In this document: piece by piece, positions 363 through 58,756 of the stretch | How positions within the stretch are numbered: position 1 is the first letter of the stretch | How the letters are laid out: each line of letters opens with the position of its first letter | NCBI GenBank assembly: GCA_037447655.1 | Contig: JBBHKE010001759.1 | Location: forward strand, 1 to 64,000 | Direction: 5' to 3' | Source: Zygnema cylindricum | Taxonomy: Eukaryota > Streptophyta > Zygnematophyceae > Zygnematales > Zygnemataceae | DNA length: 64,000 nt | Notes under the pieces: generated by a model | What the model was told of the DNA's origin: nothing | Database searches by the model: none | The model's input: the letters and a program-made list of their open reading frames with translations, nothing else | Made by a program: the position numbers and the translations under genes

Positions 363-375
363 AAAATAAGGGGAG

Positions 376-38818: not shown

Positions 38819-40153
38819 TGTCGTGCATGAGAGAGAAGCAAGGAAATCATGCATCATAACCAGCAAAATCATGCTCCAGACATGTATACAAACGAAAATG
38901 AATGAGAAAGGAAAAATATATATACAAGATGCAAAAGAATAAAGATGAAGATGACCAAATGAATAAAAGGGAAGAATACTCCCCTAACGTGAAGTGACCC
39001 CTATAATTTATACTCAGCCACAAGGTAGCCACTAGGCTCTTGGGTCTTCTACGTATTCTTTACATAGTTATCTCATAAGAAAGCAACGAAGCAAAATAAA
39101 TAATTCCAACCAAAAACAAGGAAAACTCCAAATTCGGCCAAAACTCACCCTTCCATTCCCAACCGAAAATACAAACAACAAAAATACAAACACCCAAACC
39201 GTTCAGCTGTCCGTGGGAAGGGCAGCCGGATCCGGATGCTTCTCCACACGAACTCCAATCCACCACTTCCCAAAAATGACACAAGTTGGAGGGAAACCAT
39301 CAGGACTTGGCTTTGAGCCGCATGGATTAAAAGCGTGGGCAGAATTACAAGGGATAATGTACGTAAACTATCTAGCCCCTACAGCTAGCTAGCAAAAGAA
39401 AAGAAGAAACTTGAGCAATCGGTGAGAGAGAGAGTAAGAGAAAAGCTCCGCCGCCAAGAGAAAATTCTTGTCCAAAAGCTAGATATTCTAAGTCTGGAAA
39501 TAGACTAAGTATTAGCTACACTACGCCTACGCAAACCCTAACCTAAGTCTAGGCTAGTTCACATGAACGAAATACTTAAGATGTTTGGCCAATAGGCGAC
39601 CAACATCGTCTGCCGTACGCCTAACAAAATCCACCGTCCGAGGGTAAAAACCCTCCCTATCTACATGTATGATTGAACCTACGTGGGTTAATGACTTTAA
39701 GGAATAAAAGTACATTGAAGCGCCACCAACGCTCCCAGAAATCGCGCTTCGTCGCCAAACGATACTTGACGTCTATACTCCAAAATCGCGTACGTACGCA
39801 CGAAAGGAAACATACCGCAAAAAATACTCCAAGAAATCGTGACGCGTCGCCCCAAACGATATTTGCGAAAGTACCATCGAGATCATGTACCTACAAAATG
39901 AAACAAAACAAACATTACGCACGAAATTAGTATGTATTCAATTAGACGCGTACGCGTATCGCGTACACGTCACAAAAAAGTGAACCAACATGCCACCGCA
40001 CGTGCGAAACGAAACTTATATATGCGTGCCAAAATATCGCGCGTGCATGCATGATATTGTGCGCGCGCGTCGGATAACTCCCGTGCGTGCACGATATCGT
40101 GCATGCGTGCAAAATATCGTGCACGAGTGCTACCGATACCATGCGACATGACA
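38819..40153 (-). repeat. 3' LTR of G2
   Basis: 1335 bp, TGTCATGTCGCATGG (minus strand, from 40153) to GCACGACA at 38819, with matching inverted ends TGTC/GACA. The first 150 bp on the minus strand are CpG-rich with palindromes such as GCACGATATCGTGC. The last 180 bp (38819-39000) are repeated next to it at 40156-40332. Confidence 0.8.
40020..40140. promoter_or_regulatory. CpG-dense palindromic block in the G2 3' LTR
   Basis: ATATCGCGCGTGCATGCATG, TGCGCGCGCGTCGG, and the perfect palindrome GCACGATATCGTGC lie within 110 bp near the LTR start. The same block is at 58625-58745 in the other LTR. As the start of U3 it is a candidate promoter or origin of methylation control; the function is inferred. 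Confidence 0.45.
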
Positions 40154-40332
40154 ATTGTCTTGCATGAGAGAGAAGCAAGGAAATTATGCATCATAACCAG
40201 CAAAGTCATGCTCAGACATATATACAAACGAAAATGAATGAGATAGGAAAAATATATATACAAGATGCAAAAGAATAAAGGTGAAGATGACCAAATGAAT
40301 AAAAGGGAAGAATACTCCCCTTCCATGAAGTG
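40154..40332 (-). repeat. Extra partial LTR of G2 joined end to end
   Basis: TGTCTTGCATGAGAGAGAAG to GAAGAATACTCCCC repeats the last part of the LTR at 38819-39000. The two units meet through AT, giving the perfect palindrome GACAATTGTC at 40150-40159. Copia D split this piece; the remainder is at 47964-47975. This looks like an LTR-LTR junction left by a two-LTR intermediate or by insertion beside an existing end. Confidence 0.65.
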
Positions 40333-42723
40333 TGTTTTTCTACAACCACCGTTGCAGGCCAAGAACCAGCAGTAGTAGTGGAAGTAGACATGAAAAATAG
40401 CAGAAACTATCAAAGTACCTACTCAACATCCAACTTAAAATTGACACAAAATATGACTCAGAAAGCCAATATGCTTCAAATTCGCCACAGTGATACAAAA
40501 TACAGTAAACTAACAATTCCCAAAATTGAAGCCCAAATGACTTTGTAAACCATAAGATATGATGTCAAGAAGTTTCCCAAAAACTGCCCTTAGAAAATCA
40601 TATTCCCAAAACTGGATGCTACAAAATTGGCTAAGTCCTAAGCTATATACTCACACTGTCGATCTACTGATCTACACTAAATTTGGTAACCGTTACTACG
40701 GATATTATCCTGACTAATGACAAAGCATCCTACCTGTACGTCACTGTACCTCAAAACCCTAATTATTATTTTCTAAAAACCTCATTAATGGAACATTATT
40801 TTTTTTATCACACTAAACTACAAACTAATGTTATTCAAATATTTATAGACATTGAACCATACACAAAACGTTCTAACCGTACACAAAACGTTCCTAATGT
40901 TAAGTTAGCGGTAGCCGCTAAAGTCCACCCGAATACGATCGTGTAGTACGAAGCACCTGAGTGCTTCGTCACTTGTGGTCCCACGTGAATCACGCCTCGT
41001 CACTTTGTGGTCGCACGTAAATCACGCCTCGTCACTTGCGGTCCCACGTGAATCGCGTTTGTCGACGTCTCTCAAAATCAATGATCATAATGCACTTCCG
41101 AAATATCCGGATGTTTCTATTTAATGATCATAAAAATATTCCGTACCATATAATTCCAAAATATCTGTATGACTCCAAAAATACTCGTACCATATATTTT
41201 CTGAGATATCCGGATCAGATTCCGTCTGTCTGATCTGGCGATTCCAATTCTCTGGTGTGTGACGCGTGTCGACGTCACTCTGTAAAACTTGCAAAGGTAC
41301 AATACACTATATTGTACTTTGCCTACTGTAACACTAATAAAGGTAAGTCTATTATTCTTTGGTCTAAAATAGACCGCAGAAGCCACCCAAACTATCATGC
41401 AAAAAGCTAAGCGAAGCTAGGCCGATGAACAATCATTTGAAAAACATCCTCCATATGCGTACACAGACGCAACAAAATGCATACACAGATGCATTAAACA
41501 ACAACTAGGGTTTCATGGAATAATCAACATAAACAAACTTTATGACAACAACTATGGTATGATGGAATAATCAACATAAAAAAACCTTAGGACAAATGCA
41601 TTAACAATGTATAACAAACAAACATATAAATAATAACACATGAATGCATCACACAAAAACAAATGTATAATCAAATAATCAATTTATCACTTAAAGTGCA
41701 TGACCTAATCGACAACCCTAAAATACTACATCTTTGGTCCCCACTTTACTAACCAGCATTGATGATAAATTCCTAACAAAGCTCATTCCTATATATACAC
41801 TTGTGAGCTGTCAACAAATAGATACATGTCAAAATAACCAACGTAACTTCCACTAAGTAGTATTACACCATGAGAACATATTACGACAAATAATCCTAAC
41901 TGTTAGTGTACACCTGAGAGTCGACCAATCATAATAGTACACTTGTTTGCAAGTTAGACACTACATACACACAAATTAAATTGCCGAAACCCTAACTGAC
42001 CACCAAAATAAAAACTGTCATGATCAGTACTAAATTATTAATACACATAAGACAAGACAATGTTGATTTAAATATTTACACCGACGCGTCCGCAAAATCC
42101 AGTCGCTAAATGACAACTTGCTTAGTCACTTGTGGACAATACCACGTAGTGAACCGACATCACAAAAGTACGGTCCACTTGATAACACGTCATCAAACAA
42201 TGCGATCCTTGAAAATATCGGCGGACGCCGTCCGCCTTCCACGTCTAGCTCGAACCACTGCCGAAATTAAACCATACTATCCAAATCTTGTCCGTACCGA
42301 AACTTCGTACCTCTCCATAAATTCCGCCGCTCAAATTCAAAGTAAGTCCATCCAAAATTGATTCTACGTACCAGTGGCGTTCTTTTTCTATAGATGTCGC
42401 CTGTCGCATTATGTTCTGTACGACCGGCAAACACCTTAAATATTTCGTACATTTCAGATCAGATCGCTTCGCGATCCGCCGTCCATTTCCCAACGCATTC
42501 CGCGCCACTGAATTAGTCCATTAATTTTACTTGTACATTTAATTCCCCAATCCGCAAATCCTTTCGAACCTCCACAGTATATCAGATAATTACATACGCA
42601 CGCAAACATGCATACGCACATACAAAATTTAATCTTCCAAAAACAACAAAGTCCTATATACCACTTTTTACAAACTATTCTAAGTCTACTCTATTTACTA
42701 ACTAAAGATTTCAAATCTCAACA
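40333..42723 (-). repeat. 3' LTR of copia D, carrying an insertion
   Basis: It consists of 40333-41349 and 42649-42723, matching the 5' LTR, around an insertion at 41350-42648. It includes the triple 32 bp G-box repeat (40964-41057). The purine tract on the minus strand, AGATTCAGGGGAG, precedes it. Confidence 0.85.
41350..42648 (-). repeat. Probable solo LTR inserted in the copia D LTR
   Basis: 1299 bp flanked by AAGTC (41345-41349 and 42649-42653), where the other D LTR has a single AGTC. On the minus strand it begins TGTTGTTTTTGGAAG and ends AAAGAATAATA, so the 3' dinucleotide is TA rather than CA. It is AT-rich, and no coding domain is seen. The start resembles the copia F LTR, but the rest does not obviously match. 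Confidence 0.6.
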
Positions 42724-42746
42724 CTCCCCTGAATCTTTAGACTCAG

Positions 42747-43500
42747 TTACTCACTTAGTCCAAAAGCTACTCTGCAAAAGTGCAACTTAGGAGCAGGAAT
42801 GGCTTTTGTTAACATGTCAGCCACCATCTTCTCATCTGGTAAATAACACAACTTAATGACTTTTGCAAGTACTTTTTCCCTGACAAAGTGAAGTCTAACA
42901 TCCATGTGTTTACTTTTAAAATGATGGCTGGGTTTAGAGGCAATGGAAATGGCTGCCTGGTTGTCACACCAAATAGACCGAGGACCTTTTTGCATGTACC
43001 CAAGTTCATGTAGAATAGACTTGACCCATAGGAGCTCCTACGGGGCTGAAGGTGCAGCCATATATTTAGACTCCATTGTGGATTGAGCTGTAAACTTTTG
43101 TTATTTGCTACTCCAACAGCAAGTTCCATCTCCAATCTTAAGTACAAAACCAGTTGTAGATTTCCGACTTGGCATGTCCCATAGCTGGCATCGCTCCACG
43201 TCTATATTTTCACCTCTTCTCCTCCGAGTATAAGCTTGAGATTTCGAGTTCCTCCAAGATATCTCAACACCGTTTTTGCTTCTTCCCAATCTTCCCTTTT
43301 AGGATTCTGCAGACTTCTACTCAAGACTCCCACAGCTGCTGCAATGTCGGGTGTCCTACAATTCATAAAATACATAAGACTTCCGACTACCTATCTATAT
43401 GGCTTTGAAGCCATAAACTCTTCCTCCCCTGTCTCTAGACTCCCACCAACCATTATGTCTGAATCTGTATCAATTCCTTCCAATTTTTGCCTGAATTCCA
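42747..43500 (-). pseudogene. Copia D connection region and RNase H
   Basis: Minus strand: VVGSLMYFMNCRTPDIAAAV, NPKREDWEEAKTVLRYLGGT, a stop near 43205, the TWSDASYG block (catalytic Asp), an out-of-frame STMESKYMAAPSAP-like stretch where the Glu of EAEY is lost, then the open frame 42995-42747 with WCDNQAAISIASKPSHHFKS (catalytic Asp) and MLTKAIPAPKLHF, ending in TAA. The upstream RT stop is at 43514. Confidence 0.82.
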
Positions 43501-43513
43501 TAGGAGTTACAGA

Positions 43514-44420
43514 TCATTTTACATCTCTCATTTCAAATCTTTCCAGCATGTTACCTATAGCTTCTTTTTGAGTCAACATAATCAGCCTCTTGTTTCTGTC
43601 TCTTTCTACCTGTAATCCTAAGATGTATTTTGCCTCACCGAGGTCCTTCATCTCGAGCCTAGACCTTAAAGCCGCTTTGATGCGGTTTATTTCAACCATT
43701 GACTTACTTATTAATAATAGATCATGCACATATACAGCAATGTAAATTACCCCATCCTCTCCTTGTAGAACATATACAGAATGATCTGAGCTAATTCTCT
43801 TAAAATCTAGCCCAATCAAAAACTCATCTAACTTCAGATTCCACTGACACGGGGCTTGTTTTAGCCCATACAAAGATTTCATCAATTTAAACACTAATTC
43901 TTCCTTTCCCTTTTCAACATACATTTCAGGTTGTTGCATATAAATTGTTTCTTCTAACTCTCCATGGAAGAAAGCAGTTTTAACATCCATCTGATATATT
44001 TCTATATTCTCTATAGCCGCTAGACTTAGCAAAATTCTGACAGTGGGAAATCTAACAACTTGGGAGAAGGTTTCCTCAAAGTCAATACCTTCTTTTTGAT
44101 TATATCCCTTGGCCACTAGTCTTACCTTATACCTTTCGATGGTGTTGTCCGGGTTCCGCTTCACCTTAAATGCCCATTTGCTGCCGATGGCTTTCCTGCC
44201 CGAAGGAAGATCCACAAGCTCTTATGTCTGTGCCTCCATAATGGACTTCATTTCATCGTTTGTCGCCTCGATCCACTGATTTCTCTTAGGTGATGAGAAG
44301 GCCTCCAGGATCATTAGAGGCTCCTCTGTAGCTGGAGAAAAAATAAAGTGAGAGCTTGCTTGCAGACAGCTGCTAGATCTCTTTCCCCCCGGAAATTCAA
44401 AGGCTGAGATTGTCGGCAAC
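43514..44420 (-). pseudogene. Copia D reverse transcriptase
   Basis: The linker end ISAFEFPGGKRSSSCLQASS (44419-44222) has a stop, then an open frame 44215-43514: SKWAFKVKRNPDNTIERYKV, RLVAKGYNQKEGIDFEETFS, MDVKTAFFHGELEETIYM, SLYGLKQAPCQWNLKLDEFL and IAVYVHDLLLISKS. The catalytic YVDD reads YVHD, which should abolish polymerase activity. LTQKEAIGNMLERFEM follows before TAA. Apart from this change the domain is nearly complete at 234 codons. Confidence 0.86.
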
Positions 44421-44456
44421 CTCTTATTTCTCTGTTTAGTTTGAACCGAACTTGAT

Positions 44457-45880
44457 CTAGTACAGAATGTGTAGTAGTTCCTTCCACCTAAGGTGTAGCT
44501 TGTGGTGAAGCATCTTGTAAAGGCACCAGAGGAACTGAAGGAAGAGGTGTCCCACTTGCCGATGGAAAGTAGACTCGCTGCGTATGGTGAAAAATGACAT
44601 ATTCTTGCTTTTCTTTTGCCGGTTGATCTGACACTTGAAACAGGTCAACCGAATCAAGTTCATCTTTAATCAGGATATTTCTAGAAACAATCACTTTCTG
44701 TTTCTCAAGTAGAAACACTCTATATCCTTTCGCATTATCATCATACCCCATGAAAATCCCAGGTAAGCCTTTAGGCTCCATTTTCCATCTATCATGTGAA
44801 GTATCTAAAATAAAACACCTGCTACCTAAGATCTTAAAATGACTAACATCAGGTTTTTCCCCAGTCCAAAGCTCATAAGGTGTAGTGCTAACAGACCTAG
44901 AAGCAATTATATTTTTAATATAAACAACACAGTTAAGTGCTTAAGCCCAGAATTTCAAATCTAGCCCTTTATCTACAAGCATGGACCGGGCACTCTCTGT
45001 CACTGTCCTATTTAATCTCTCAGACACACCATTTTGTTTCGGTGTATATGGAACTGTAAGATTGTGACTGATACTTTCGTGAAGGAGAAATTCTTCGAAT
45101 TCAATCGATGTGTATTCTCCCCGTTGTCTGATCTTAACGCCAATATTGGAACTCCATGAAGCTTTTCCGCCCACGCTTTGTAGTGTTTAAAGTGAGTAAA
45201 CACTTCACTTTTATGTTGCATGAAGTAAACTTTGGTGTACCTCGAGTAGTCATCTGTAAATGTGACCATATAGTGGACCCCTCCAGCCGAAGCCACTTGT
45301 GAAGGACCGAGAACATCAGAATGGATGAGCTGCAAAACTTTTTCCGATCTATGGTATGTTTCCTGTGGAAATGGCAATTTGTGGATCTTGCCAAGTGAAC
45401 AACCATCACATGTTTTTATAGGATGAGATGTGAGAGAAACTCCATCAACTTTTCCCGAATTCACCATTTTCTTTAGACTATCATAATTCATGTGTCCTAA
45501 TCTCTTATGCCATAACTCATTATCAAATTCGACACTTGAGTAGAGAACATCATTTTCTTTATATTTAGCCATGTCCATCCTTTACATTTTGCTAACATCT
45601 CTAGTTCCTGTTACTACGACTTTCCCTTTCTTGCTAACAACCTGTTCCCTCCTTTCAAAGCAACTTCAAAGCCTTTGCTCTCCACTAATGATGTAGAAAA
45701 AAGATTTTAACCCTAAAAATTTGGAATATACAAAACATTGTGAAAGGTTCTCTCTACCAACTTTCCCCCCACATCTACCATCAATGATACATCACCCTGA
45801 GCTGAGGTTTGAACACTCATGCCGCAAGCATATTAGATACTCTTTGGAGATGTTTGTTGCAGATTCGTAAAAGCCGCCAT
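44457..45880 (-). pseudogene. Copia D integrase and linker
   Basis: After the protease stop: STSLVESKGFEVALKGG, then the open frame 45578-45012 with ELWHKRLGHMNYDSLKKM, CDGCSLGKIHKLPF (zinc binding), LIHSDVLGPSQVASAGG (first Asp), FTDDYSRYTKVYF, LALRSDNGE (second Asp). A frameshift near 45120 passes to GEYTSIEFEEFLLHE and KQNGVSERLNRTVTES (Glu), to a stop at 44941. The linker continues to 44488 with PYELWTGEKPDVSHFKI and GIFMGYDDNAKGYRVF. All three DDE acids are present. Confidence 0.85.
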
Positions 45881-45883
45881 GTT

Positions 45884-46900
45884 CTAACACATGTGGGCAG
45901 ACGCTCCCGTGTCCATGAACCATCCTGCATACTTTGGACCCTCCATGGCAGCCGCCATAGCAAAGAAATCCGCCTCCTCTTGCTCATTGAAGATGAGAGA
46001 CTCATCTATATCAGTTGCAGAAGCTGAAAAAAGAGCATTTCCACGGGAAGGATTTCCAGAAAAACCTTTGTGATACTGGCTCTGCTGCCAACCTGGCCTG
46101 TATAAACTTGTCTCATTAGCCTTCTTCAATTTTGGACAGTACCTGTATCCATGACCCTTCTCAAAACAATAGAAACAAGTAGTAGTAGATGGCCTATTCT
46201 GCCTTGGATTAAACTGATTTTGATTCAGATTAAACTGATATCTTTTGTCAAAGTCTGTTGCAAATGCTTCAACCTTTCCTTCTCCATCAAGGAGTTTAGT
46301 ATTTGTTTCTTCCTCGAATATAAGATTATACGCTAACTGAAATGACCAGCTAGCTTTATCATGACTCTTTAATTGAACAGACACACCCTTTATGCTACTA
46401 GGGAGACCTCTAATAAGCAAAGTTGTCTGTTGAAACTCAAGAAATGACCCCCCAGCAGAAGAGTGAGCATCAATGAGCGCGCGAAAATTGTCACAATACT
46501 CAACCATAGTTCCCCCCGTGTATTTGTATCCCCAATTTTTTCCAGCCACCAAGAGCTCCTCCTAAACATTCGCTTTCTCAAAAGCGGATTTGAGGGATGT
46601 CCAAATCTCCCTCGCCTTCTTCATTTTCAGTCGAGACATGACCAAATTTTCTGAAATACAAAGAATTAGATTGTTCCTTGCCATTGAATTCTTTTTCGCC
46701 CAAGTTGGATCTGTTTCATCAAGGGAGCCATCCAAGACCCCCAATAAGTCAACAGTTTCAAACGACGATTCAACCATCGCCGCCCAGTACGCATACTTTT
46801 GGCCATTGAAGATAGGAATTCTTGACAAAAGGCCCATAACCAGTAGTTCTACAACCACCGTTGAAGGCCGAGAACCAGCAGTAGTAGTGGAAGTAGACAT
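45884..46900 (-). pseudogene. Copia D gag and protease start
   Basis: ATG at 46900 lies in the LTR; STSTTTAGSRPSTVVVELLV then MGLLSRIPIFNGQKYAYW reads straight through the half-tRNA primer site. A single in-frame TAG at 46562-46564 interrupts gag; the same frame continues to 45884. It has YKYTGGTMVEYCDNFRALID, QQTTLLIRGLPSSIKGVSV, the zinc knuckle CFYCFEKGHGYRYC, and the protease site WFMDTGASAHMC, where a TAG ends the frame. Gag forms the particle, and the protease matures it. Two stops in about 1 kb indicate modest age. Confidence 0.88.
46831..46842 (-). other. Half-tRNA-type primer binding site of copia D
   Basis: Minus strand GGTTATGGGCC, complementary to the initiator tRNA-Met anticodon region. 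It directly follows the LTR end region GTTGTAGAACTACT and lies inside the Gag frame (codons for VMGL). Confidence 0.58.
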
Positions 46901-47958
46901 GAAAAACAGCAGAAACTATCAAAGTACCTACTCAACAGCCAACTTAGAATTGACACAAAATATGACTCAGAAAGCCAATATGCTTCAAATTCGCCACAGT
47001 GATACAAAATACAGTAAACTGACAATTCCCAAAATTAGAGCCCAAATGACTTAATAAACCATAAGATATGATGTCTGGAATTTTCCCAAAAAACTGCCCT
47101 TAGAAAATCATATTCCCAAAAACTGCCCTTAGAAAATCATATTCCCAAAACTGGATGCTACAAAATTGGCTAAGTCCTAAGCTATATACTCACACTGTCG
47201 ATCTACTGATCTACACTAAATTTGGTAACCGTTACTACGGATATTATCCTGACTAATGACAAAGCATCCTACCTGTACGTCACTGTACCTCAAAACCCTA
47301 ATTATTATTTTCTAAAAACCTCATTAATGGAACACTATTTTTTTTATCACACTAAACTACAAACTAATGTTATTCAAATATTTACAGACATTGAACCATA
47401 CACAAAACGTTCTAACCGTACACAAAACGTTCCTAATGTTAAGTCAGCGGTAGCCGCTAAAGTCCACCCGAATAAGATCGTGTAGTACGAAGCACCTGAG
47501 TGCTTCGTCACTTGTGGTCCCACGTGAATCACGCCTCGTCACTTTGTGGTCGCACGTAAATCACGCCTCGTCACTTGCGGTCCCACGTGAATCGCGTTTG
47601 TCGACGTCTCTCAAAATCAATGATCATAATGCACTTCCGAAATATCCGGATGTTTCTATTTAATGATCATAAAAATATTCCGTAACATATAATTCCAAAA
47701 TATATGTATGACTCCAAAAATAGTCGTACCATATATTTTCCGAGATATCCGGATCAGATTCCGTCCGTCTGATCTGGCGATTCCAATTCTCTGGTGCGTG
47801 ACGCGTGTCGACGTCACTCCGTAAAACCTGCAAAGGTACAATACACTCTATTGTACTTTCCCTACTGTAACTTTAATAAAGGTGAGTCTTATATACCACT
47901 TTTTAGAAACTATTCTAAGTCTACTCTATTTACTAACTAAAGATTTCAAATCTCAACA
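46844..47958 (-). repeat. 5' LTR of copia D
   Basis: About 1115 bp from TGTTGAGATTTGAAATC (47958). The lower boundary is set by comparison with the element end at 40333 and is good to a few bases. It matches the 3' LTR closely except for the insertion there and a 35 bp tandem duplication near 47095-47135. Confidence 0.82.
47487..47596 (-). promoter_or_regulatory. Triple G-box tandem repeat with hairpin in the copia D LTR
   Basis: Three 32 bp units (47503-47534, 47535-47566, 47567-47596) of the form CTCGTCACTTGTGGTCCCAC plus GTGAATCACGC; units 1 and 3 hold CACGTG, unit 2 a variant. A perfect 9 bp hairpin ACGAAGCAC-CTGA-GTGCTTCGT (47487-47508) overlaps the first unit. The array is repeated in the 3' LTR at 40964-41057. 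G-boxes bind bZIP and bHLH factors in plants, so this is a likely U3 enhancer. Confidence 0.55.
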
Positions 47959-47975
47959 AAGTGACCCCTATAATT

Positions 47976-47984
47976 CCCCCCCCC
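47976..47984 (-). other. G-run, candidate polypurine tract of G2
   Basis: The minus strand reads AAGGAGCTGGGGGGGGG just after the PHD region and before the partial LTR piece. A purine tract at this place would prime plus-strand synthesis. A similar AGCT-plus-run occurs inside the element at 52565-52580. Confidence 0.4.
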
Positions 47985-48041
47985 AGCTCCTTAGCCTGCG
48001 GAAGAGCTGGTCAAAACCATTGGCGGCTCACGACGACCATG

Positions 48042-48218
48042 GCAAAACAAATGGCCAGCTGGCACAGCTGTCAATGGAGGAACTAAGCACTCCATGTGGA
48101 ACCCTTGGTTACAATGGTCGCATAAGAGCATGGAAGTCTCGCCGTCTGCTCGCCTGCAAATGGTACATTCGGTCGCCTCTGTGATTGGCATCCTCATCGG
48201 ATCCATATCCTGTGACAA
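48042..48218 (-). pseudogene. G2 C-terminal PHD finger
   Basis: Minus-strand frame 48218-47991, following the integrase tail after a frameshift. Cysteines and histidine are spaced as in C4HC3 PHD fingers: CTIC, 11 residues, CDHC, four residues (NQGF), H, two residues, C, 14 residues with PAGH, C. The last of the eight ligands is Arg where Cys is expected (HGR after the final Cys) and the usual Trp before it is Leu, both explicable by point mutation. PHD fingers bind histone H3 N-terminal tails. At this place gypsy chromoviruses carry a chromodomain, so a chromatin-targeting role for integration is inferred. Confidence 0.75.
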
Positions 48219-48806: not shown

Positions 48807-49268
48807 AACTCTGAAACTCTGAGACCTCCATTGGCCCTCAGAGTAAGCAGATCCAAAAAGAAGCTTATCTAGATAGTGCCGACTCCAAGTGGATATAAAC
48901 CCAAATGACTGACCCTTTGACAATCAAAACCCAAATATAGATTCACCCCTATGAAATAACACTTTCTGTGTGGTCAGTTCCACCACCCAATGCAAAGTTA
49001 GAATATGAGATTTGGACACATTCACCCACTTTGACTTTCCCTTAGAAATATCGCCACCCTGGCAGACAAAAACTCTGACCGACTACACCCCTGTGTAGCG
49101 TGGACTCCTCTGAGTCCGCAGCAAAAAGAATCACTGAAAATGGTCAAGTAAATTGATAGTTATGGCTGGCCAAAGTTTGCCATTTATACAAGGTGCTCTC
49201 TGGGAGAGGCAGCTACTTACCCAAAATTTTCTAAGTCCTATTTCCCCTCTAAAACTCTATCTACTGAA

Positions 49269-49343
49269 GTACGGCACCAATCAAATTACTGTGTCGTACA
49301 GAAAAGTACAGGTGCCGGTGTACTTTCTGTACGGCCATTGTAC
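49269..49343 (-). promoter_or_regulatory. GTAC cluster in the solo LTR
   Basis: Six GTAC tetramers in 75 bp with CACCAATCAAATTACTG beside them, the same arrangement as in LTR4. Confidence 0.4.
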
Positions 49344-49725
49344 AACATGGCCAAATTGTCGACACGTGTCATAGACGGATTCGTTCCCGCAATCTCCGGA
49401 GTCGCCGCAATCCAACATTGTCGCGCCACGTGTCACATGAAGTGGCGATGGCTGAAAAACGCCAAAAGTACATGTTCCGTGATCGCGGCACCTATCGCGC
49501 CCGTCCGATCAAAAACCGGCTATAATCTTAGCCGCTGAAATTCGACGCGCGGTATTTGTTTCGCTATCGAAACAAATGCGCGGTATCCGTTTCGTACCCG
49601 TACTGTACTCCGTACTATATTAAAACGGTATCTATGTACTAAGAATCTATTTCCCGTTAAACGATTTAGTCTACGCGTAACAATGTATATTGTAATCAAA
49701 CCTAACGTAATGTAACACTAGTTTT

Positions 49726-49800
49726 AGGTTTAACGGTTAAAGGCAACGGCTACGCCCACTTGTCAGACGGCAGGTTTCAGGTTCAATACCTGGGTCCGTC
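49726..49800 (+). other. tRNA-like sequence, antisense to the solo LTR
   Basis: Plus strand TTTAACGGTTAAAGGC (D-arm-like), GGCTACGCCC, then TCAGGTTCAATACCTGG (T-arm with TTCAATA loop and 5 bp stem). It matches the antisense blocks of LTR2 and LTR3 in position and order. Confidence 0.5.
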
Positions 49801-49999
49801 AAGTACATTTTATTAAATCTACCTAATTCACTTTCTGTCTTCTCTAGAGAGTTTAGGTAGCCATGGCTCTAGCTCCCTTTCCAGCCTTCAGTGACTACAG
49901 CAAGTGTGGGGGCTTAGAGAAGGGGACTTAGAGGCAGACGGCATCAGCTCTTTTTCTATCATAATACAGACCTAGAAAATACTCAAATATCAACAAACT

Positions 50000-50548
50000 C
50001 GTCCGACAATGATTAATTAAAGCTTCATCCAACATTTCTTGAAATTCCCCTTTGAACTCCGTACCCTGGTCCGTGAGAACCTATGCAGGAGCTCCATAAC
50101 GCATGAGAACGTTCTCTTTAAAAGCAGCGGTGGTCAATTTAGCTGTCTTGTGGGGAAGAGTGACCACCTCTACCCACTTGCTAAAAGTTTCAATCATTAT
50201 CATGATGTATTGTTTCCCCTTTCAAGATAAGGGAAACGGTCCAGCAAGATGGACGGACCAGCGATAAAACAATCCTCTGATGGGCAATGGTTGTAGCGAC
50301 ACCTGCCGATTAGAGAAAGAGGTGCGTAAGCGCTCGCATGTGGCGCATTTGTGGAGAATGGCCGCCACATCCGCTTGCATTTCGGACCACCAATAGCGTG
50401 CCTTTACAAGGATCAAAGTGCGCTTGGTCTCGTCATGGCCAAGCTCAGTATGTATCTGCTCAATCAAGGACAAGCGCTCGGTTGGCCGGGGGACATGTCG
50501 ATGAATGCTGTCCGCCAGCAATCGAACTAAAGATCCGTCGAGCCACAT
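50000..50548 (-). pseudogene. G2 integrase, N-terminal half
   Basis: Minus strand: SLIEQIHTELGHDETKRTLI and CATCERLRTSF give the HHCC zinc-binding domain; RYWWSEMQADVAAILHK lies between. The core starts RWSVHLAGPFPLS, where gypsy integrases have V-D-L; the catalytic Asp is His. After a stop, KQYIMIMIETFSKWVEVVTL and VLTDQGTEFKGEF (second Asp) reach the solo LTR junction. Integrase inserts the cDNA into the chromosome; with the first acid lost this copy is inactive. Confidence 0.85.
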
Positions 50549-50559
50549 ATAATTTTTGG

Positions 50560-51140
50560 CTCGTTTCTTTACTCAGTCTTCCTCCTCGGCGGTAGTACCG
50601 GGTCGAAAGGTTTGAGAGGAGAGGAAGAAGATTAATGGGCCGTCGCGCCACGGATCCGTGGCCGGCCGAGGGTGAGGCATAGAAGAGAGACAGTAAGTGA
50701 TATACGAACCAGCCAACATGGCCGGTACCTCGTCCTCGTCGAAATCTTGCCGGACATTGTTATCGATGGTCCCGGGTAGTGGGTTCCGAGAAATCCCGTC
50801 GGCGTTCAAGCTTAACAAACCGGGCCGATGGATGATCTCAACGTCCTACTCTTGTAAAATTAAAGCCCATCGGGCAAGCTTCCCTGAAAGCTTATCGATA
50901 GTCATCAACCAATGAAAGGGGTGAGGGTCAGTTAGGAGCGTGAATGGCTTGCCGTACAGATAATGTCGAAAATGAACAATACCCCATACGGCGACGAGAC
51001 ATTCACCCTCGTAACTACAGTAATTAGATTAAGCTCGTTTATTGTTCCGGTTGGCGTATGCCAATACGTTTTCCTCTCCGTTCAACTCTCTTTGCGTTAA
51101 AATAGCCAAAATGCCTGGCTTCCCAAAATCGGTTTGTAGG
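50560..51140 (-). pseudogene. G2 RNase H
   Basis: It continues from RT: LPFCLQTDFGKPGILAILTQ (first Asp), a stop near 51029, then GECLVAVWGIVHFRHYLYGK (Glu), FTLLTDPHPFHWLM (Asp) and ARWALILQEYDVEIIHRPG, the gypsy RNase H end. NADGISRNPLPG follows (50818-50573). Catalytic residues are kept across two frames. Confidence 0.8.
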
Positions 51141-52228
51141 CAAAAGGGAAGCTTGTGGTTAGGAGGTCGGAGAATGGGAGCGCTGGAAAGGGCGGTTTTC
51201 AGTTTTTCAAACGCTTCTACTTGGGTGGGTCCCCAAACAAAAGGCACTTCTTTTTTGAGAAGGTCGTTTAGGGGAGAAGCAAACGTACTAAAATTCAGTA
51301 CAAATAGACGATAATAATTGGCTAATCTGAGAAAAGCCCTCAGACTAATGAGATCTGTAGGGGCCACAAGTTTAGTGATAGCCTCTACCTTAGCTTCCAA
51401 AGGAGTGATGCCCTCAGCTGAAATAAAATGGCCGAGATAGGGCACTCCCTCCGCACCGAAAGTACACTTGGCTGGGTGACACTTCAGCACGACTTTCTTT
51501 AACTCGGTGAGAACCCACTCAATATGGCACGCATGCTCCTCAACTGTGGCGGAAGTGATTATCAAGCCATTGATGTAGCACCGGGCAACTTTACATCCAC
51601 CCAACACCGAATCCATGACTTTTTGAAACACGGCGGGTGCGTTCTTAAGACCGAAAGGCATAACTGCCCATTCCCACCGACCATCACTGCCCCAAAATGC
51701 AGTTTTATGCCGATCTCTTTCCTCGATTTCAAACTGGTTAAACCCTTGACGCAAGTCAAAAATGCTAAAGAACTTTGCACCACCTACATGGTCAAATATT
51801 TCCTCCGCTAGAGGCATAGGGTAGTGGTCTTGAACAGTCCGGGCATTGAGCTCCCGGTAGTCCCCACACATTCTTCGCTCAATAAAATTTCCGTCGGAGT
51901 CTTTCTTCCTAGGAATGACTGTGGGGGCGGCAAAGGTGGAAACCGACCGATAGATTAGACCGGCTTCTTCCAATTTTGCGCATCTTTTGTCCACCATGTC
52001 CCATTCCATTTCAGAGAGACACTATTTCGGCTTAAAGATAGGTCGATCGTCTTCAAGGTCGATTAACATTTTGTAAGTAGAATGACGTCCAAGGTCATTC
52101 ATGGAGAAAGCAAACACATCTATATGACGGGTGAGTGTGTCAGTTAATAGTGTCTGTTCCGCCTTTGTGAGACTGGAACCGAACTTCCACTTGGGCGTCT
52201 CGAGACTCTTGATAGTGAAAGCTTCCAT
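51029..52228 (-). pseudogene. G2 reverse transcriptase
   Basis: Entry region TLLTDTLTRHIDVFAFSMND (52228-52022), TAG, then a long open frame 52009-51029: RRMCGDYRELNARTVQDHYP, SIFDLRQGFNQFEIEERDRH (first Asp), VMPFGLKNAPAVFQKVMDSV, CYINGLIITSATVEEH, HPAKCTFGAEGVPYLGHFIS, LRAFLRLANYYRLFV. The catalytic Y-x-D-D reads YING near 51563-51580, so both metal-binding Asp of this motif are lost. Otherwise the domain is complete and clearly Ty3/gypsy. Confidence 0.9.
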
Positions 52229-52559
52229 GGCTTCAGCAAATGCAATTTGCTCATCGGCGATGAGTTAGTGGCCTAACTCGTATTTTACCGGAGTCTGCTG
52301 CAAGCAATTTACCCAGTGGTGCCAGCTACGCGTCAAAAATGCAGCTGTCCAGTGCGGTGCCGGACCAGGAAACGATGAAATTGTGGATTGAACGGCTGTA
52401 TAGGCTGGGATTTCCCAAGACATATGACTGGGGTTGAGGAAATCATAGATGGAGATGTTTTTAACCGCAGGTGTGAGAGAAGGGAAGAGAAAAAACTGAA
52501 ATGGATTTCCCTTGAGACTAGGAGAGGTGCGAAAGGAAATAAGACGTGAAGGAGCCGCC

Positions 52560-53854
52560 GTATTCCCCCCCCCCCCAGCTGGTTGCATGGGGTGATTCTC
52601 TACGTAGCGACCAGCTGCAAGGCCGAGACCTAAGACAAATGATAAAGACTGAGGATCCATGACCCTACCCAACAAAGTGCAACGTTGTCTGCGTGTAAGG
52701 TCGGGGGGCGCAGTAGTGCATTCAATAAAATGCATGAGATGCTCCCGTTCTGTGGCAGTAGGCTCCTCTAACTCTCTAGTGACATTATTCCGGAGCATGT
52801 TTGGACCGTTATGAGAGTATGCATGGGAATTAAGGTAAGACACTAAAGTAGGAAGGACCTAGAGGGGCTGGCCAATTACATTAATGTTGTAATTTGGAGG
52901 GTAGTTAGATTAGACACATGATTGGACTTTGTGGAAAGGAAGCAAAGCGGTTGTAATGTCTATAGTGGGAGGTCGTACCAACAAATTAGCCTCACAAATA
53001 CGACCAACATTGATTAGGTTCGTCCATTTGGAGCGAACACGATGTGCCTAGGACCCATGCCGAGCGACATCAATAATTAGCGGGGGTCCAACAAGGTGTT
53101 TTATGCGCTTATAGTCAGCCAAAATTGTAGGCCGAGGATCATTATAAGCTGCGACGTTCTCTAAAATGTATCTGACAGGCTTGGTCATGGTTTGAAGAAA
53201 ATGAAGGACCCTCAAAAGCTCAAAAAACAATTTGGTACGGGGATTTGCCAAACCAAAACCTTTGCCTTCCCAAGACCTGCCTTGACACTCCCACCCCCCA
53301 AAAACAAGGTCTATCGGTTCGACATCCCGTAGATGATGATTACTAAGGATGTGAATGTCTTGAGGAAGAGCAGTATGCATGTGTAGAAAGGCTGACTGTG
53401 GAAAAAACTGTGGATACTGTGAATGTAGGAGATTATAGTGGTGCAATTGTGCTTTTCTAACTAATGCGTCAATTTCTACTGCAAAGTAGTAACGGATGAG
53501 GAGACCATTCCGTAAACATGACAATAGTGAAGTTCCGATCCCAGGGAATAGATCTAAAATATTGACCCCGTCCGTATGAGGACTCGGCTGTACGGGCTTC
53601 CAACTGATAGGCAAGAAACCCAAAGGATCGGTTGCAATTGTAGGTATAGGAGGGATAGTCGTTAATGGAATAGATAATGTGGACTTATAAATATTGTCAA
53701 ATGTGTGAGATTTGATAAGAAAACCCGGTTGTGCAAAGAGCTCGGGTAAGGGGGAACTATCCAGTATAATTTCTTCGGCCGTAAGAGAGTGGAAAATTTC
53801 CTCCCCAACGGAATTCCCTAAAAATGCGGGAAGAGCCGTAGCCGAGTGAGCCAT
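52560..53854 (-). pseudogene. G2 C5-cytosine DNA methyltransferase domain
   Basis: The second reading frame probably begins at ATG 53854 (MAHSATALPAFLGN). Motif I ILDLFPGIGTS (53533-53562), motif II VEIDA, motif IV FGGWECQGRS with the catalytic Cys codon at 53285-53287, motif VI ILENVAAYNDPRPT, then RHGS and TAG (53048), and AHRVRSKWTN (motif VIII-like). After further stops, 52843-52560 gives ATEREHLMHFIECTTAPPDL and RRQRCTLLGRVMDPQSL, fitting the C-terminal motif IX-X of DNMT3/DRM-type enzymes. About 430 codons in all, the size of a catalytic domain. The enzyme would methylate cytosine C5 using S-adenosylmethionine. Position between protease and RT, conserved in G1, shows that it belongs to the element. 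Confidence 0.87.
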
Positions 53855-54064
53855 AGTGGGCAAAGGTTAACGGGCTAAAATGAGAGGGAGGCAGATTTTG
53901 CGCTCTGGAAAGTGTGTCAGTCAGTAAGAAAATGTTTGGTCGTGCATGTCAACGCCACCGCGAATTCAGAATATAACGTCTTCGCCCACCAAACACTGAT
54001 AGTCGTCACATTTAGTGACCAATGCTCTAACGGCAATTTCAACGGACTCATTTTCGGTTCCTAT

Positions 54065-55045
54065 CTAAAATCGAAAGATGAGCGGGTCCTTTGTGATTCC
54101 GAGGACCAGCTCCGTGGTCCCAGCCGATGTGAAAAAGCGGGTAGCGGACGCTTGAAGCTTGTCTGCTGTCAGACCAAGCTTAGGAGCAAATCCGGATCCG
54201 AGGATCACGAGTTTGGCCCCGGTGTCCATGAGAGGAAGAGTGGGGTGAACACCGTTCACTGAGAATGATCCACGAGAGTTATCAAGGAAAAAAATATGGG
54301 GATCAAGATTAAGACGCTCTTCCGTAGTAACCGGTTGAACCTCTGAAAGACTGCGGTTTAACTGCAGAGCCCTCAAAGCGGCTGTAGCTGCGACCTCATC
54401 AACGAGAGGAAGGGCTTTCGGTACATCCTCCAACATCGCTGAAAGAATACTTAATCGCTCCTTTACTTGATGAGCCTCATGAACAGTGCCATCCAATATG
54501 GTTAGTGCCTCTGCCGCGATGGTAAGAGCGGTTTCCGGTAGGGAAGGCAGAGGCTCTTTTGCAAATGAGATTGGGACACGAGAATTTTGTAATTTGCCCA
54601 CTCGATTATGGTCTGCTGAGCCCTTTTCAAATGTAGCTACCCGTTTTTGGACGGTGGAATCCTGAAGGGTTCGCCCGGCCAACGACGGCATATGGACAAC
54701 GGTCTTAGCCATCCCAGTAAACTGGGGTTTCATTTCCGCCATGAAAGGTGCAAATTGCTCTTTCATCATGGCCGCCATCATGGCTTGAAGATCGGCTTTC
54801 TCTCTCTCTCTACGAGAGATCTTAAGAGGAGCTTCCTCTTTCCATGTCTCCTTAGGCAGAGTGATTGGTTTCGCAGAACGGGCCGAAATTCTACCGTTTT
54901 TTATCTGATTTTGATAAGTGAAATTAGGGTCTTTCATATGGCATCGATGGACATAATGTCCCTTTTGGTGGCAATGATTGCGAGTGGCCGCCTAGTCACG
55001 ACACATGCGGTCATCGTGCCCGGTTTTTCCACATCGAAAACACAT
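54065..55045 (-). pseudogene. G2 zinc knuckle and aspartic protease
   Basis: Minus strand. Knuckle CFRCGKTGHDDRMC (55001-55042, CCHC), a TAG, then a degenerate second knuckle HCHQKGHYVHRC lacking the first Cys. The frame 54937-54065 follows: a methionine-rich helix ADLQAMMAAMMKEQFAPFMA, a linker, and VNGVHPTLPLMDTGAKLVIL with the retropepsin D-T-G. The frame ends shortly after LVG-DVIF at a TGA that G1 shares, about 150 bp before the methyltransferase ATG. Confidence 0.83.
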
Positions 55046-55149
55046 ACGGTTTCCGGGACTAACAGGTGGAGTTCCAATGGCTGGCGTCTTCTGGGCCTAT
55101 TGGGAGGCCATGGGTTTTTAGGTGGAGGAGGAGATGGATTAACCGGTTC

Positions 55150-55965
55150 TCAGTGAGGAGTTTTGGAACGCTCATAGGCGTCCCACCACGATGTGTGCAT
55201 CTCATACTCTAGCGCGTATTGAGCGGCTTGCTCAAAGGTGAATTTCAGTCCATACATCTGGCTGAGGTGGTTTTGGATAAACCTCTTTGATGGAACTGGA
55301 AAGTGTCCCACAAATTTCTAGACAGCCTCCGCATCGGACATGAGGATTGGTAATGCCTCTCGCAGAGTTTCCATCCGAGCTCGCAAGGCGGAAGCAGTTT
55401 CACCTGGCCTACGTTCGAAGTTCATCATCTCTTTGATCTGATCCGGATTTTGCATCCGGTACTCCTCTTGGAGGATGTCAAACATGACGGACAGAGGGTC
55501 ACGTAAAGGAATGGTTCCCCCCGCTCTAGCTGGGACCGCCGCCCAGGCATCCACTGCATAATGACGAGGGACCTCGGAGATAGCGGGATACAACCCGTCC
55601 CCAATAGCAACTAATACCGTCGGTCTCGCAGCCTGATATGGGATATTCACTTGGCCGAGGACTTCTGGTAACCCCGCAAACGGAGCCACGTACTCTCTCA
55701 TCGCAAGAACATCCTCGTACTTGCGAGTGTAGAGAGTGAGGGCCGTACCACGGAGGTATCGACCGAGAAGGGAAAAAGCGACATGGAGGTCAAACCTATC
55801 TTGATATCTAAATGTTAAATCCCTCATTTCCGTGTCGTATAACTTACGAAAATGCGATAAGGACATGTTGTCCTTTAATTCGGAAAAGCACAATTGCATT
55901 TTACTCATGGATCCCTCTGACGAGGAAGCCATGTTGTAAAGAGGAGGATAAGCCGGTTGTGCCAA
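55150..55965 (-). pseudogene. G2 gag capsid region
   Basis: Frame 55965-55318 with one TAG (55318-55320), then open to about 55154. Blocks: LSHFRKLYDTEMRDLTFRYQ, ILQEEYRMQNPDQIKEMMNF, RRPGETASALRARMETLREA and FTFEQAAQYALEYEMHTSWW. The pattern of a retrotransposon capsid with a major-homology-like RPGE region is recognisable, not a specific family. A serine-rich N-terminal extension (about 56146-55970) lies in another frame. A proline-rich stretch leads to the zinc knuckle. Confidence 0.72.
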
Positions 55966-56149
55966 AAGTTGGGCTCGCTGGGAACCTACGAGTGTGAGGA
56001 GTGGGAAAGGTTTCCTCCGGAAAGTCTTCTTCGGTCCCCTCTAGGTATGACCTAGATGAAACCGAGGACAATGATGACGTAGATGTGAGACTAGACCGCA
56101 CTGATGGCGATCTGCGATCCGCAATTAGATCGGATGTGGTCAACAATTC

Positions 56150-57650
56150 AGGAAATCCGAAGGATTTAACTGCGGAGGACGATAGAGTGTACCTCCTCGG
56201 GTGGACCCGGATAAATATTGAAGGTTATCCCAATCTGTGGGCATAAACAAAGGGGAAAACCCTGACTACAATAATGAAATGTTTCGCACGACCTAACCGA
56301 GATGCAACACGTGTCAGACCAATCCACTCATCCAGTCAACACACTCAGTCACTATCAAGACCCGATGGTCATATCTAGCAAGAAGTCGGTTTACCAAAAC
56401 CTCTACCCTGCAAACAGTTGGCAAGGCCAAAGGGCCAGATCTATAAAAACAAGAAAATGGCTATCCAGGCACCTTTGGGTGCAGATCTACAACAACACAG
56501 CCGGGAAAAGGTCTACACAGTGCCACCCACGGCAAGATCTAGGAAGAAATCCCACTCCTGATAGTCACACGAAAATCCAAGGCCACTTAGGGCCAGATAG
56601 CATGCAGGGAAAGCAGGAAAATGCCAATGCTCAATAAGAAAGGTTCACAATGGAACCAATCCACACCGCTCCCCTACACGCGTGTCTACACGAAATCGGA
56701 ACGCTCCTGCACCCGCAAGGCATCGACTACTTACAGACACCTTTAGTACTCTGGTGAGCACTAAGGGTGAACCGAACTTGTTCGAAGCAAGTCGGGTTTT
56801 GCAAAGCTCCCGAGGATAAAATTTGCTCCACGAAATTCGCTCCACGCAACGTCTCCCAAAATAACCCTCCGTACAGTGAAGATGTACGCCGTGGAATGTT
56901 AGGGAACCAATGGAAGGGAAAAAAATAACGTTGGGTGGATGAAAAATAACCAATAAGAAGCACAAAGGTGATAGATAGGAAAAAAGTGTTAGAATAAAGT
57001 CGTAGGCCGCTCAAACTCTAGATATACAGCCAATCTGGTGACCACAATACTCAAAAGCCAGCGGCCAACCCTAATTCCACTTGAAAAATCCTAATTCCAC
57101 TTGAAAAATCCTAATTCCAAAGCCAAACCCTAATTCTAGACGGCTAAAACTCAAAATCTGCAGCCAAGGAATAGAAGGATACCGTCCTAAGGACTAGAAT
57201 CAAAAGGAATAAACCCTAAATCTGCTGCAACCCTAATTCTGCAGCCAAAACCCTAATTCTGCCTCCAAACCCTAATTCTGCAGATTAACCCTAATTCTGC
57301 AGATTAACCCTAAATTTGATACAAAATTTAGGTTTAACACTAAAGCCAAGAAATATAGTGGTGACAGAATAAGAGACAAAGATTAAAAGAAAGAAATAGC
57401 GGAAACAAAAACAAAATGTTTTTTTTTTCTTTTTTTTTTTATAAAATAAAATTTATAAAATTAATTAATTTTGTAATATTTTTATTTCAAAGCAAAACTG
57501 AAAACGAAATGTAATTTGGAAAGAAAATAGAAGAGACCAAGCTATGAATTAAAACTGAAAATGAAAGGTGATATTTTTTTCTTTTATAAAATAAATTTGA
57601 TATTTTTAATAATTTAATTCAAATAAAAGCTTTTGAAATGCGAAGTCTTT
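56150..57650 (-). other. Leader of G2
   Basis: About 1.5 kb between LTR and gag with no recognised domain. It contains the telobox-like array (57067-57313), an A/T-rich low-complexity stretch (57400-57620) and a thymine run (57420-57441). No convincing primer site was found after the LTR. Small plus-strand frames here are out of the element's sense and look spurious. Confidence 0.45.
57067..57313. repeat. Telobox-like array in the G2 leader
   Basis: AACCCTAA occurs eight times in about 247 bp, mostly as AACCCTAATTCTGCAG units. The element-sense strand reads TTAGGGTT. Telobox motifs bind Myb-type telomere-repeat-binding factors in plants. Confidence 0.7.
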
Positions 57651-57654
57651 TGGA

Positions 57655-58756
57655 CAAGAATACTCAGCCACAAGGTAGCCACTAGGCTCTTGGGTCTTCA
57701 ACGTATTCTTTACAAGAGTTATCTCGTACGAAAGCAACGAAGCAAAATAAATAATTCCAACCAAAAACAAGGAAAACTCAAAATTCGGCCAAAATTCACC
57801 CTTCCATTCCCAACCGAAAATACAAACAACACAAAACAAACACCCAAACCGTCTAGCTGTCCGTGGGAAGGGCAGCCGGATCCGGATGCTTCTCCACACG
57901 AACTCCAATCCACCACTTCCCAAAAATGACACAAGTTGGAGGGAAACCTTCCGGACTTGGCTTTGAGCCGCGTGGATTAAAAGCGTGGGCAGAATTACAA
58001 AGGAGAATGTGCGTAAACTATCTAGCCTCTACAGCTAGCTAGCAAAAGAAAGGAAGAAACTTGAGCAATCGGTGAGAGAGAGAGCAAGAGAAAAGCTCCG
58101 CCGCCAAGAGAAAATTCTTGTCCAAAAGCTAGAAATTCTAAGTCTGAAAATGGACTAAGTATTAGCTACGCTACGCCTACGCAAACCCTAACCTAAGTCT
58201 AGGCTAGTTCACATGAAAGAACTACTTAGAATGTTGGCCAATAGGCGGCCAACATTGTCTGCCGCACGTTCCGCATAATCCACTGTCCGAGGGTAAAAAC
58301 CCTCCCTAACTACATGTATGCGCGAACCTACATGGGTTCGCGACTTAAATAAACATATGTATCGAAGCGTCGCCCGGAAATCGCGATACGCCTCCAAACG
58401 ATACTTCACGTCGATACTCCCCAAATCGCGTGCGTACGCACGAAACGAAACATATCGCACGAAATATATGGTATCGCACGAAATACTTGAAAAATGTGTA
58501 CCTGCGCACGAAACGACATGGTACCACGCACGAAATTAGTATTTGTTCTATTAGACGTGTACGCGAATCGCGTACACGTCAAACATAAATAAATCGCGGT
58601 CGCACGTGCGACCGAAAATCATACACGCACGCCGAAATATCGCGCGTGCATGCATGATATTGTGCGCGCGCGTCGGATATTTCCCGTGCGTGCACGATAT
58701 CGTGCATGCGTGCGAAATATCGTGCACGCGTGCTACCGATACCATGCGGCATGAGA
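57655..58756 (-). repeat. 5' LTR of G2
   Basis: It aligns with 39002-40153 from ACTCAGCCACAAGGTAGCC to CCGATACCATGCGGCATGA. The last 180 bp of the LTR found at 38819-39000 are missing or replaced here, so the LTR-leader boundary is uncertain. The LTR start (58560-58756) is very CpG-rich. Confidence 0.75.
58560..58750. promoter_or_regulatory. CpG-dense palindromic block in the G2 5' LTR
   Basis: Dozens of CpG lie in about 190 bp, with GCACGATATCGTGC, CGCGCGCGTCGG, GTACGCGAATCGCGTAC and repeats of CGTGCATG/CGTGCGTG. It is the presumed U3 start of a methyltransferase-encoding element. Confidence 0.5.

Follow-up and report, generated by a model that had tools for sequence, protein, structure and literature searches.

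Can one retrotransposon carry both an enzyme that writes DNA methylation and a domain that reads histones? This question is raised by a stretch of 64,000 nucleotides from Zygnema cylindricum (Streptophyta; contig JBBHKE010001759.1, positions 1 to 64,000; hereafter the window), in which an initial annotation, made from the letters alone, had placed a Ty3/gypsy retrotransposon encoding a C5-DNA methyltransferase and a PHD finger at 38819-58756. DNA methylation usually acts on transposons from outside, whereas an element with its own writer and reader could apply the mark itself and select where it goes. We are nearly certain that 38819-58756 contains, on its minus strand, a single Ty3/gypsy-type element that encodes both a C5-methyltransferase and a PHD finger, preserved as an old, broken copy. 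The best explanation overall, to which we give a probability of about 0.6, sees in it the dead remnant of an autonomous element in which the two domains would act as writer and reader, framed by split repeats in the order A-coding-B-A-B.

The stop-free pieces of the minus strand were scanned with Pfam, and the domain order that had been read on one strand is borne out: Gag, zinc knuckle, protease, C5-methyltransferase, reverse transcriptase (RT), RNase H, integrase and PHD finger. The order protease-RT-RNase H-integrase, the gypsy-type RT and the H2C2/rve integrase (by Pfam and RT trees) are those of Ty3/gypsy elements. The parts are given below in sense order; L001 is a relative on another contig, and P0003, P0055 and P0026 are proteins related by their RT.

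55321..56040, minus strand: Gag remnant, an open reading frame (ORF) assigned by position
54068..54991, minus strand: aspartic protease (MDTGA) preceded by what is left of a zinc knuckle, Asp_protease_2 at 23.1 bits, slightly under the cut-off of 24.3
53051..53866, minus strand: C5-methyltransferase, covering motif I through the beginning of motif VIII, PF00145 at 31.1 bits, DNMT3A at E = 1.6e-5
52268..52858, minus strand: methyltransferase motifs IX-X and linker to the RT, by alignment with P0003, P0055, P0026 and L001
50576..52021, minus strand: RT and RNase H (RVT_1, RT_RNaseH_2)
49997..50572, minus strand: integrase zinc domain (H2C2) and start of the core, Integrase_H2C2 at 52 bits
48592..48837, minus strand: last part of the integrase core, tblastn to L001, 50% over 74 amino acids
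48197..48553, minus strand: C-terminal part of the integrase, tblastn to L001, 45.7% over 94 amino acids
47994..48299, minus strand: PHD finger, C-terminal to the integrase, PF00628 at 42.6 bits, 38% identity to L001

The element matches RVT_1 (E = 9.2e-24, 84.7 bits), RT_RNaseH_2 (E = 5.2e-14, 52.5 bits) and Integrase_H2C2 (E = 7.5e-14, 52.0 bits), and no Pfam family scores above its cut-off in the Gag region. One frame connects all pieces, knuckle through integrase zinc domain, with 12 stops in 1,589 codons, compared with 72 and 89 in the other frames. The copy is dead, with these 12 stops, an insert in its integrase and a copia element nested inside it. The zinc knuckle is without its first Cys, the catalytic YIDD of the RT reads YING, and the Glu of the integrase D,D-35-E is replaced by Asp. 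The architecture of the initial annotation stands, and several things that it did not say are added, among them that the copy no longer works, that it harbours a copia and that about 1.2 kb interrupts its integrase.

The host sequence at the insertion is a plus-strand copia. A perfect 4-bp target-site duplication (TSD), GACT, flanks the element, and joining the flanks after its removal restores an open copia RNase H frame (...AISWSSRLQPTVALSSTEAEY...). The duplicated GACT and the reopened host frame indicate a single insertion with target duplication. The limits proposed earlier are exact, since GACT flanks both ends and the element termini are recognised. A younger minus-strand Ty1/copia (RVT_2, 229 bits) is nested inside.

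38815..38818, no strand: target-site duplication GACT, low-coordinate side
58757..58760, no strand: target-site duplication GACT, high-coordinate side
40333..47958, minus strand: nested Ty1/copia, foreign to the gypsy element, with its own TSD AAGTG at 40328-40332 and 47959-47963
48811..49996, no strand: insert of about 1.2 kb splitting the integrase, ends approximate, kin to repeats at other sites of the window, 399-1339 among them

What kind of methyltransferase does the element encode? PF00145 matches the window element with E = 2.1e-7 (cut-off 22 bits). By eye, motif I reads DLFPGIG, a motif II-like piece EID, motif IV GGWECQG, motif VI ENV and motifs IX-X EPTATERE...RRQRCTLLGR. Motif VIII (HGS*AHRVRSKW) contains a stop in the window element and is open in a second copy:

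20861..22640, minus strand: second, truncated member of the family with protease and methyltransferase, matching 52756-54535 at 89.8% identity

The methyltransferase motifs reported between protease and RT are thus present, although motif IV is ECQ and motif VIII is interrupted by a stop. The second copy scores 23.8 bits with PF00145 and 25.9 bits for the protease, the latter over the cut-off of 24.3. Loss of the methyltransferase from other copies had been named as a result that would count against the annotation, and the second copy, the only further one in the window, retains it.

The motifs run from I to X without the rearrangement seen in DRM enzymes, with IX-X placed on alignment alone, and a PF00145 match with unrearranged motif order is characteristic of the DNMT3 type. 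In phmmer searches against solved structures, DNMT3A comes first for the window element, for the second copy (E = 5.3e-6, with the alignment running from motif IV to VIII) and for L001 (E = 2e-8, with DNMT3A/B/C as best matches). DRM2 is far weaker (0.022 for the window element and 0.031 for L001) and is not listed for the second copy. The DNMT3A segment covering motifs IX-X in the L001 match scores below zero. Judged by these sequence matches, the methyltransferase is DNMT3-like and unrearranged. Searching proteins with the methyltransferase piece of the window element gave 514 candidates, none of them at E<=1e-3. The Foldseek list for the second of two AlphaFold models is headed by DNMT3A/B, with TM-scores <0.35 and rmsd 17-22 among the 50 rows shown; this ranking appears to echo the sequence match and is given no weight.

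The PHD finger of the window element matches PF00628 with E = 6.2e-11 (42.6 bits, cut-off 24). The C4HC3 cluster noticed after the integrase is therefore a PHD match, although one of its eight zinc ligands, the last Cys, is lost; the cluster is complete in L001. The ligand spacing is common to both, and REHSKNCAP upstream of the PHD finger is identical in the two. Among solved structures, the best matches of the window PHD finger are PHF12, Lid, KAT6 (KAT6A/B), BAZ2 (BAZ2A/B) and KDM5A, and those of the L001 PHD finger are PHF12, Cph2, CHD4, UHRF1 and Lid; KDM5B is also among the best matches when the two are taken together. Several of these PHD fingers bind unmethylated H3K4. Aromatic residues are missing from the first zinc loop, an observation that speaks against a K4me3 cage. 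Chromoviruses, which belong to Ty3/gypsy, carry a chromodomain, another histone reader, at the C-terminus of the integrase, whereas the window element and L001 have a PHD finger in that place, and Pfam scans of both gave no chromodomain match.

Is the pairing of the two domains found elsewhere? A scan of genome contigs with P0055, P0003 and P0026 gave 184 pattern matches and one confirmed locus, L001, a contig of 9,285 bases filed under a cyanobacterial metagenome-assembled genome. A cyanobacterial owner is unlikely, and we infer that L001 is a misbinned eukaryote sequence, probably from an alga. Its bases 1-127 are identical to 9159-9285, so it is assembled as a circle of 9,158 bases, which may be a true circle or a repeat collapse. 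The ORF at 3-3491 encodes Gag, one canonical knuckle (CSHCGKTGHSNENC), a knuckle-like CX2CX4HX6C, a protease (20.5 bits, under the cut-off) and the methyltransferase (PF00145 at 45.9 bits, profile positions 3-119 of 324), which has AGWPCQG as motif IV, ENV, AHR and LLG within the complete ORF. In the same frame past one TAG, the ORF at 3492-6635 ends with a complete PHD finger (39.9 bits, full model), which follows RT, RNase H, H2C2 and rve (51.7 bits).

With tblastn, L001 and the window element are colinear from protease to PHD finger at 31-50% protein identity overall: 31.5% over 607 amino acids for protease and methyltransferase (E = 8e-73), 46.9% over 749 amino acids from RT to integrase and 43.8% over 73 amino acids for the PHD part. 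A protein match at this distance implies that both extra domains have long been under coding constraint. Because L001 looks intact and carries both, their pairing looks like a family property rather than an accident, as far as the two sequences tell. The Pfam families, their order and this colinearity support the identity given by the initial annotation. Scans of viral contigs gave no confirmed relative, and a phage collection gave no match to the second ORF of L001.

The sole stop between the Gag-protease-methyltransferase and RT-integrase-PHD frames of L001 (3480-3505) is TAG CAA TCA. The leaky context of the tobamovirus type is UAG CAR YYA, and by our own estimate such a context follows a TAG by chance about once in 512. 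Through this single leaky-type UAG (UAG CAA UCA), the L001 lineage may also produce its methyltransferase at Gag-like levels. Such a stop is absent from P0003, P0055, P0026 and a fourth RT relative, P0085, where the joint is open; these four do not support the leaky-stop reading, which is drawn from L001 alone.

How is the coding region framed? In sense order, the element consists of A1 (58756-57660), the coding region, B1 (47975-47964 and 40332-40156), A2 (40153-39010) and B2 (39009-38819).

57660..58756, minus strand: terminal repeat A1, 5' end of the element
47964..47975, minus strand: opening 12 bases of inner repeat B1, immediately preceded by a G-run
40156..40332, minus strand: inner repeat B1, larger part, split from the first by the nested copia
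39010..40153, minus strand: terminal repeat A2, 90.6% identical to A1
38819..39009, minus strand: terminal repeat B2, 3' end of the element, 95.2% identical to B1

These identities correspond to 989 of 1092 aligned positions for A1/A2 and 179 of 188 for B1/B2, the ends of the compared pieces differing by 1-2 bases. The outer ends of the element read TCTC...GACA, with TGTC for TCTC in the inner repeat; the B1-A2 joint is GACA-AT-TGTC, and its two bases AT are absent from the outer ends. L001 shares CAATTGTC with this joint, for which we estimate a chance of about 3% in 2 kb. The G-run before B1 could be a candidate polypurine tract. No TGG, the start of a tRNA primer site, is found in the 80 bases after A1. 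Since the plain long terminal repeats (LTRs) at both ends and the tRNA primer site of Ty3/gypsy elements are lacking in this one full copy, we use the term gypsy-type. The split direct repeats, seen in the one full copy in the window, are of the DIRS kind, whereas DIRS elements have a tyrosine recombinase and no TSD, and here a DDE-type integrase and a TSD are present. The initial annotation was silent on this layout. DIRS-type repeats joined to a DDE integrase fall outside the replication schemes known to us, and the titles from one literature search included no description of a split-repeat, joined-ends life cycle with a DDE integrase.

Repeat A is rich in CpG (observed/expected 1.51 in A1 and 1.37 in A2) and has palindromic CGTGCACGATATCGTGCATGCG blocks in 57660-58756 and 39010-40153. 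The same ratio is 0.51 in B2, 0.80-1.05 in the coding parts of the element, 0.75 in the nested copia, 0.62 in the left part of the window and 1.15 in the host copia. There is no depletion marking self-methylation, and these ratios are uninformative either way.

How does the element compare with known systems? By its published description, KnitGypsy-Dnmt3 from Klebsormidium nitens (de Mendoza et al. 2018, PMC5890265) has the same gypsy domain set, an unrearranged Dnmt3 in Pol, DIRS-like repeats and a streptophyte host, and by that description the window element belongs to the same group (Dnmt3 in gypsy Pol with DIRS-like repeats). The likeness is set by description, not by sequence; the window copies depart from it in motif IV, and no PHD finger is mentioned for KnitGypsy-Dnmt3 in the main text. 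P0010, the one named K. nitens RT protein among those listed, has no motifs IX-X upstream and falls in a sister clade. SymbioDIRS-Dnmt3 of Symbiodinium, as outlined in PMC5890265, likewise has Dnmt3 in Pol with RT, the A-coding-B-A-B layout and CG methylation in yeast, and differs in its RT class and in having a tyrosine recombinase instead of a DDE integrase. A 2025 paper (PMC12344493) reports DNMT3 inside retrotransposons of streptophytes and dinoflagellates; in its excerpts, Copia and DIRS are named, the 2018 paper is cited and a PHD finger is unmentioned. Ginger1 DNA transposons share the gypsy-type integrase, and one listed family, Ginger1-9_HM, has a PHD finger, but they are DNA transposons with terminal inverted repeats, and the excerpts of PMC2836005 mention neither RT nor methyltransferase.

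The view of this locus as a little-described system holds in part: a gypsy element with Dnmt3 and DIRS-like repeats was already known, which the initial annotation did not mention, and the PHD finger shared with L001 is the new part relative to the KnitGypsy-Dnmt3 kind. No report of a gypsy element with both domains was found in the open-licence literature, which is not proof of absence, and a literature search on Closterium and Zygnema brought up no relevant title. Searches on PHD fingers also led to titles on CR1-type LINEs in reference lists. Arthropod retrotransposons have reportedly captured a methyl-CpG-binding domain (known by title only), likewise an epigenetic reader but one of methylated DNA, and no methyltransferase appears in the title.

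What could an intact element of this kind do? The methyltransferase would be released beside the nascent cDNA and methylate it, which is the proposed step that we hold with most confidence. The PHD finger at the integrase end would recognise a histone tail, most likely that of H3 without methylation at K4, and direct insertion to gene-poor chromatin. Writer and reader would together copy the logic of animal DNMT3 (an H3K4me0 reader plus a de novo methyltransferase), and a new copy would land in silent, methylated chromatin whose state it already matches. The inner B1-A2 joint would serve as a joined-ends template for rebuilding the termini, the step that we hold with least confidence. Methylation of the cDNA, PHD-guided insertion and DNMT3-like logic, taken jointly, are a tentative proposal with somewhat less than an even chance. 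The earlier functional idea, that the element methylates its cDNA or target and reads chromatin, is plausible, but the dead window copy is incapable of it.

DNMT3 joins a PHD-like ADD reader to the enzyme. The solved structures of animal DNMT3A/B are the best matches of the window and L001 methyltransferases, whereas in the window element and L001 the reader and the enzyme lie far apart in one polyprotein and are probably cut apart by the protease. If the proposal is true, target choice, self-silencing and host tolerance could be tested with one protein pair, for which L001 supplies intact-looking sequences. Methylation or protection of cDNA was among the ideas proposed for related elements by the authors of PMC5890265, whose main text also describes de novo CG methylation in yeast by the DNMTs of Symbiodinium DIRS elements; in principle, this activity favours the cDNA methylation step.

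Several observations weigh against this explanation or against the domain assignments behind it. The window copy itself is not functional. The PF00145 match in the window element spans just profile positions 2-113 of 324, and NCBIfam TIGR00675 (dcm) gives 33.1 (window element) and 25.2 bits against a cut-off of 100.65; scoring of the domain as a C5-methyltransferase, a check proposed by the initial annotation, is thus above the Pfam cut-off and below that of NCBIfam. The motif IX-X piece has no Pfam or NCBIfam match and owes its assignment to an alignment of relatives. In both window copies, motif IV has Glu-Cys (GGWECQG) instead of the catalytic Pro-Cys. The AlphaFold models are poor (pLDDT 30.7 and 45.9), and a protein search with the window PHD piece gave no relative. 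Between the two window copies, dN/dS is 0.55 in the methyltransferase ORF (271 codons, 1 skipped; bootstrap 0.32-1.00), 0.44 in the protease piece and 0.68 in the whole methyltransferase stretch (364 codons, 5 skipped), compared with 0.48 and 0.93 in out-of-frame controls (257 codons, 14 skipped each); it is not below both controls and gives no sign of selection between these copies. The two domains are known together from two loci only, the window element and L001. KnitGypsy-Dnmt3 gave no methylation in yeast, a result that its authors call inconclusive according to the main text of PMC5890265. The insertion preference of the family and the methylation of its cDNA are predictions.

Could the domains have been brought together by nested elements, with the methyltransferase or the PHD finger belonging to another insertion? 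The window is crowded with nested elements, two of the insertions lying inside 38819-58756, but the coding parts lie on one strand in nearly a single frame within one TSD, the same order is found in the independent L001, and the methyltransferase-RT joint also occurs in P0003, P0055, P0026 and P0085. On the present data, we rejected this mosaic by the strand, the frame, the TSD and the L001 order, and give it next to no chance. The repeats pose a related problem, as they might be ordinary LTRs scrambled by deletion or duplication in one old copy, with A-coding-B-A-B not being family-wide. A single full copy was examined, and L001, one circle without repeat pairs, cannot show the layout. Against such scrambling, which we consider quite unlikely, the inner boundaries of A1, A2, B1 and B2 agree within 1-2 bases, the outer ends give a perfect TSD, and a DIRS layout is stated for KnitGypsy-Dnmt3 in the main text of PMC5890265.

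Two further alternatives concern the methyltransferase. It might protect the cDNA from cytosine deamination or from recognition as unmethylated foreign DNA, in the manner of a dUTPase, while the PHD finger has an unrelated structural role. The slot between protease and RT holds a dUTPase in bdelloid rotifer elements, as stated in the excerpts of PMC5408684, and protection was one idea of the 2018 authors (PMC5890265), but the PHD finger common to the window element and L001 is left unexplained, and we consider protection alone unlikely. Alternatively, the methyltransferase could be decaying or inert cargo that has lost its enzymatic role in the window lineage, as GGWECQG in both copies, the lack of a sign of selection between them and the inactivity of KnitGypsy-Dnmt3 in yeast (PMC5890265, main text) would suggest. 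However, the second copy aligns with DNMT3A through motif VIII, L001 has WPCQG, ENV, AHR and LLG in a complete ORF, and the window copies may descend from one recent ancestor with a single change in motif IV; we regard inert cargo as quite unlikely. A dead copy of an autonomous element with a putative writer and reader remains our preferred explanation.

How widely is the methyltransferase distributed? A protein search with the RT gave 683 matches, and the best 120 were used; named kin among them include Klebsormidium, Closterium and Calypogeia. At least 100 residues upstream of the RT are present in 26 of these 120, and four of the 26 (P0003, P0055, P0026 and P0085) have motifs IX-X just upstream of the RT. 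The motif IX-X profile was built from P0003, P0055, P0026 and the window element, so that P0085, from Closterium NIES-53, is the sole independent match (32.5 bits). An RT tree with 84 rows places the window element beside P0001-P0003 (support 100/99), P0026 and P0055 with Closterium (100/99), and L001 with P0012, P0034 and P0035 (100/96). Together with a Calypogeia clade and others, these groups form a 44-row clade (99/95). Motifs IX-X are found in four of the six listed proteins of this clade that reach far enough upstream (not in P0049 and P0011) and in none of the four (P0010, P0032, P0033 and P0058) in the clade with K. nitens P0010. Missing motifs were not scored as loss because most rows that lack them end short of that upstream stretch. 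In a label test on the tree, the methyltransferase is scattered, with 5 changes, and 51 of 500 shuffles were as low.

These results suggest methyltransferase-bearing gypsy elements in several divergent RT clades, one with Closterium, and not in Klebsormidium alone. We find it doubtful that there is an old and broad streptophyte group of gypsy-type elements that combines the reader-writer pair, pre-methylated cDNA, insertion into matching chromatin and A-B-A-B joined-ends replication with a DDE integrase.

Elsewhere in the window, another, distant gypsy element lies on the plus strand at 32390-34547, with an RT 34% identical to that of L001; the methyltransferase and PHD pieces have no tblastn match there. 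Near the second copy, inverted and direct repeats of 94-97% identity at 14743-15582 and 19674-20862 represent young duplications or a nested element. In the nested copia, the low-coordinate LTR has an apparent insert of about 1.3 kb (41351-42649) relative to the high-coordinate LTR.

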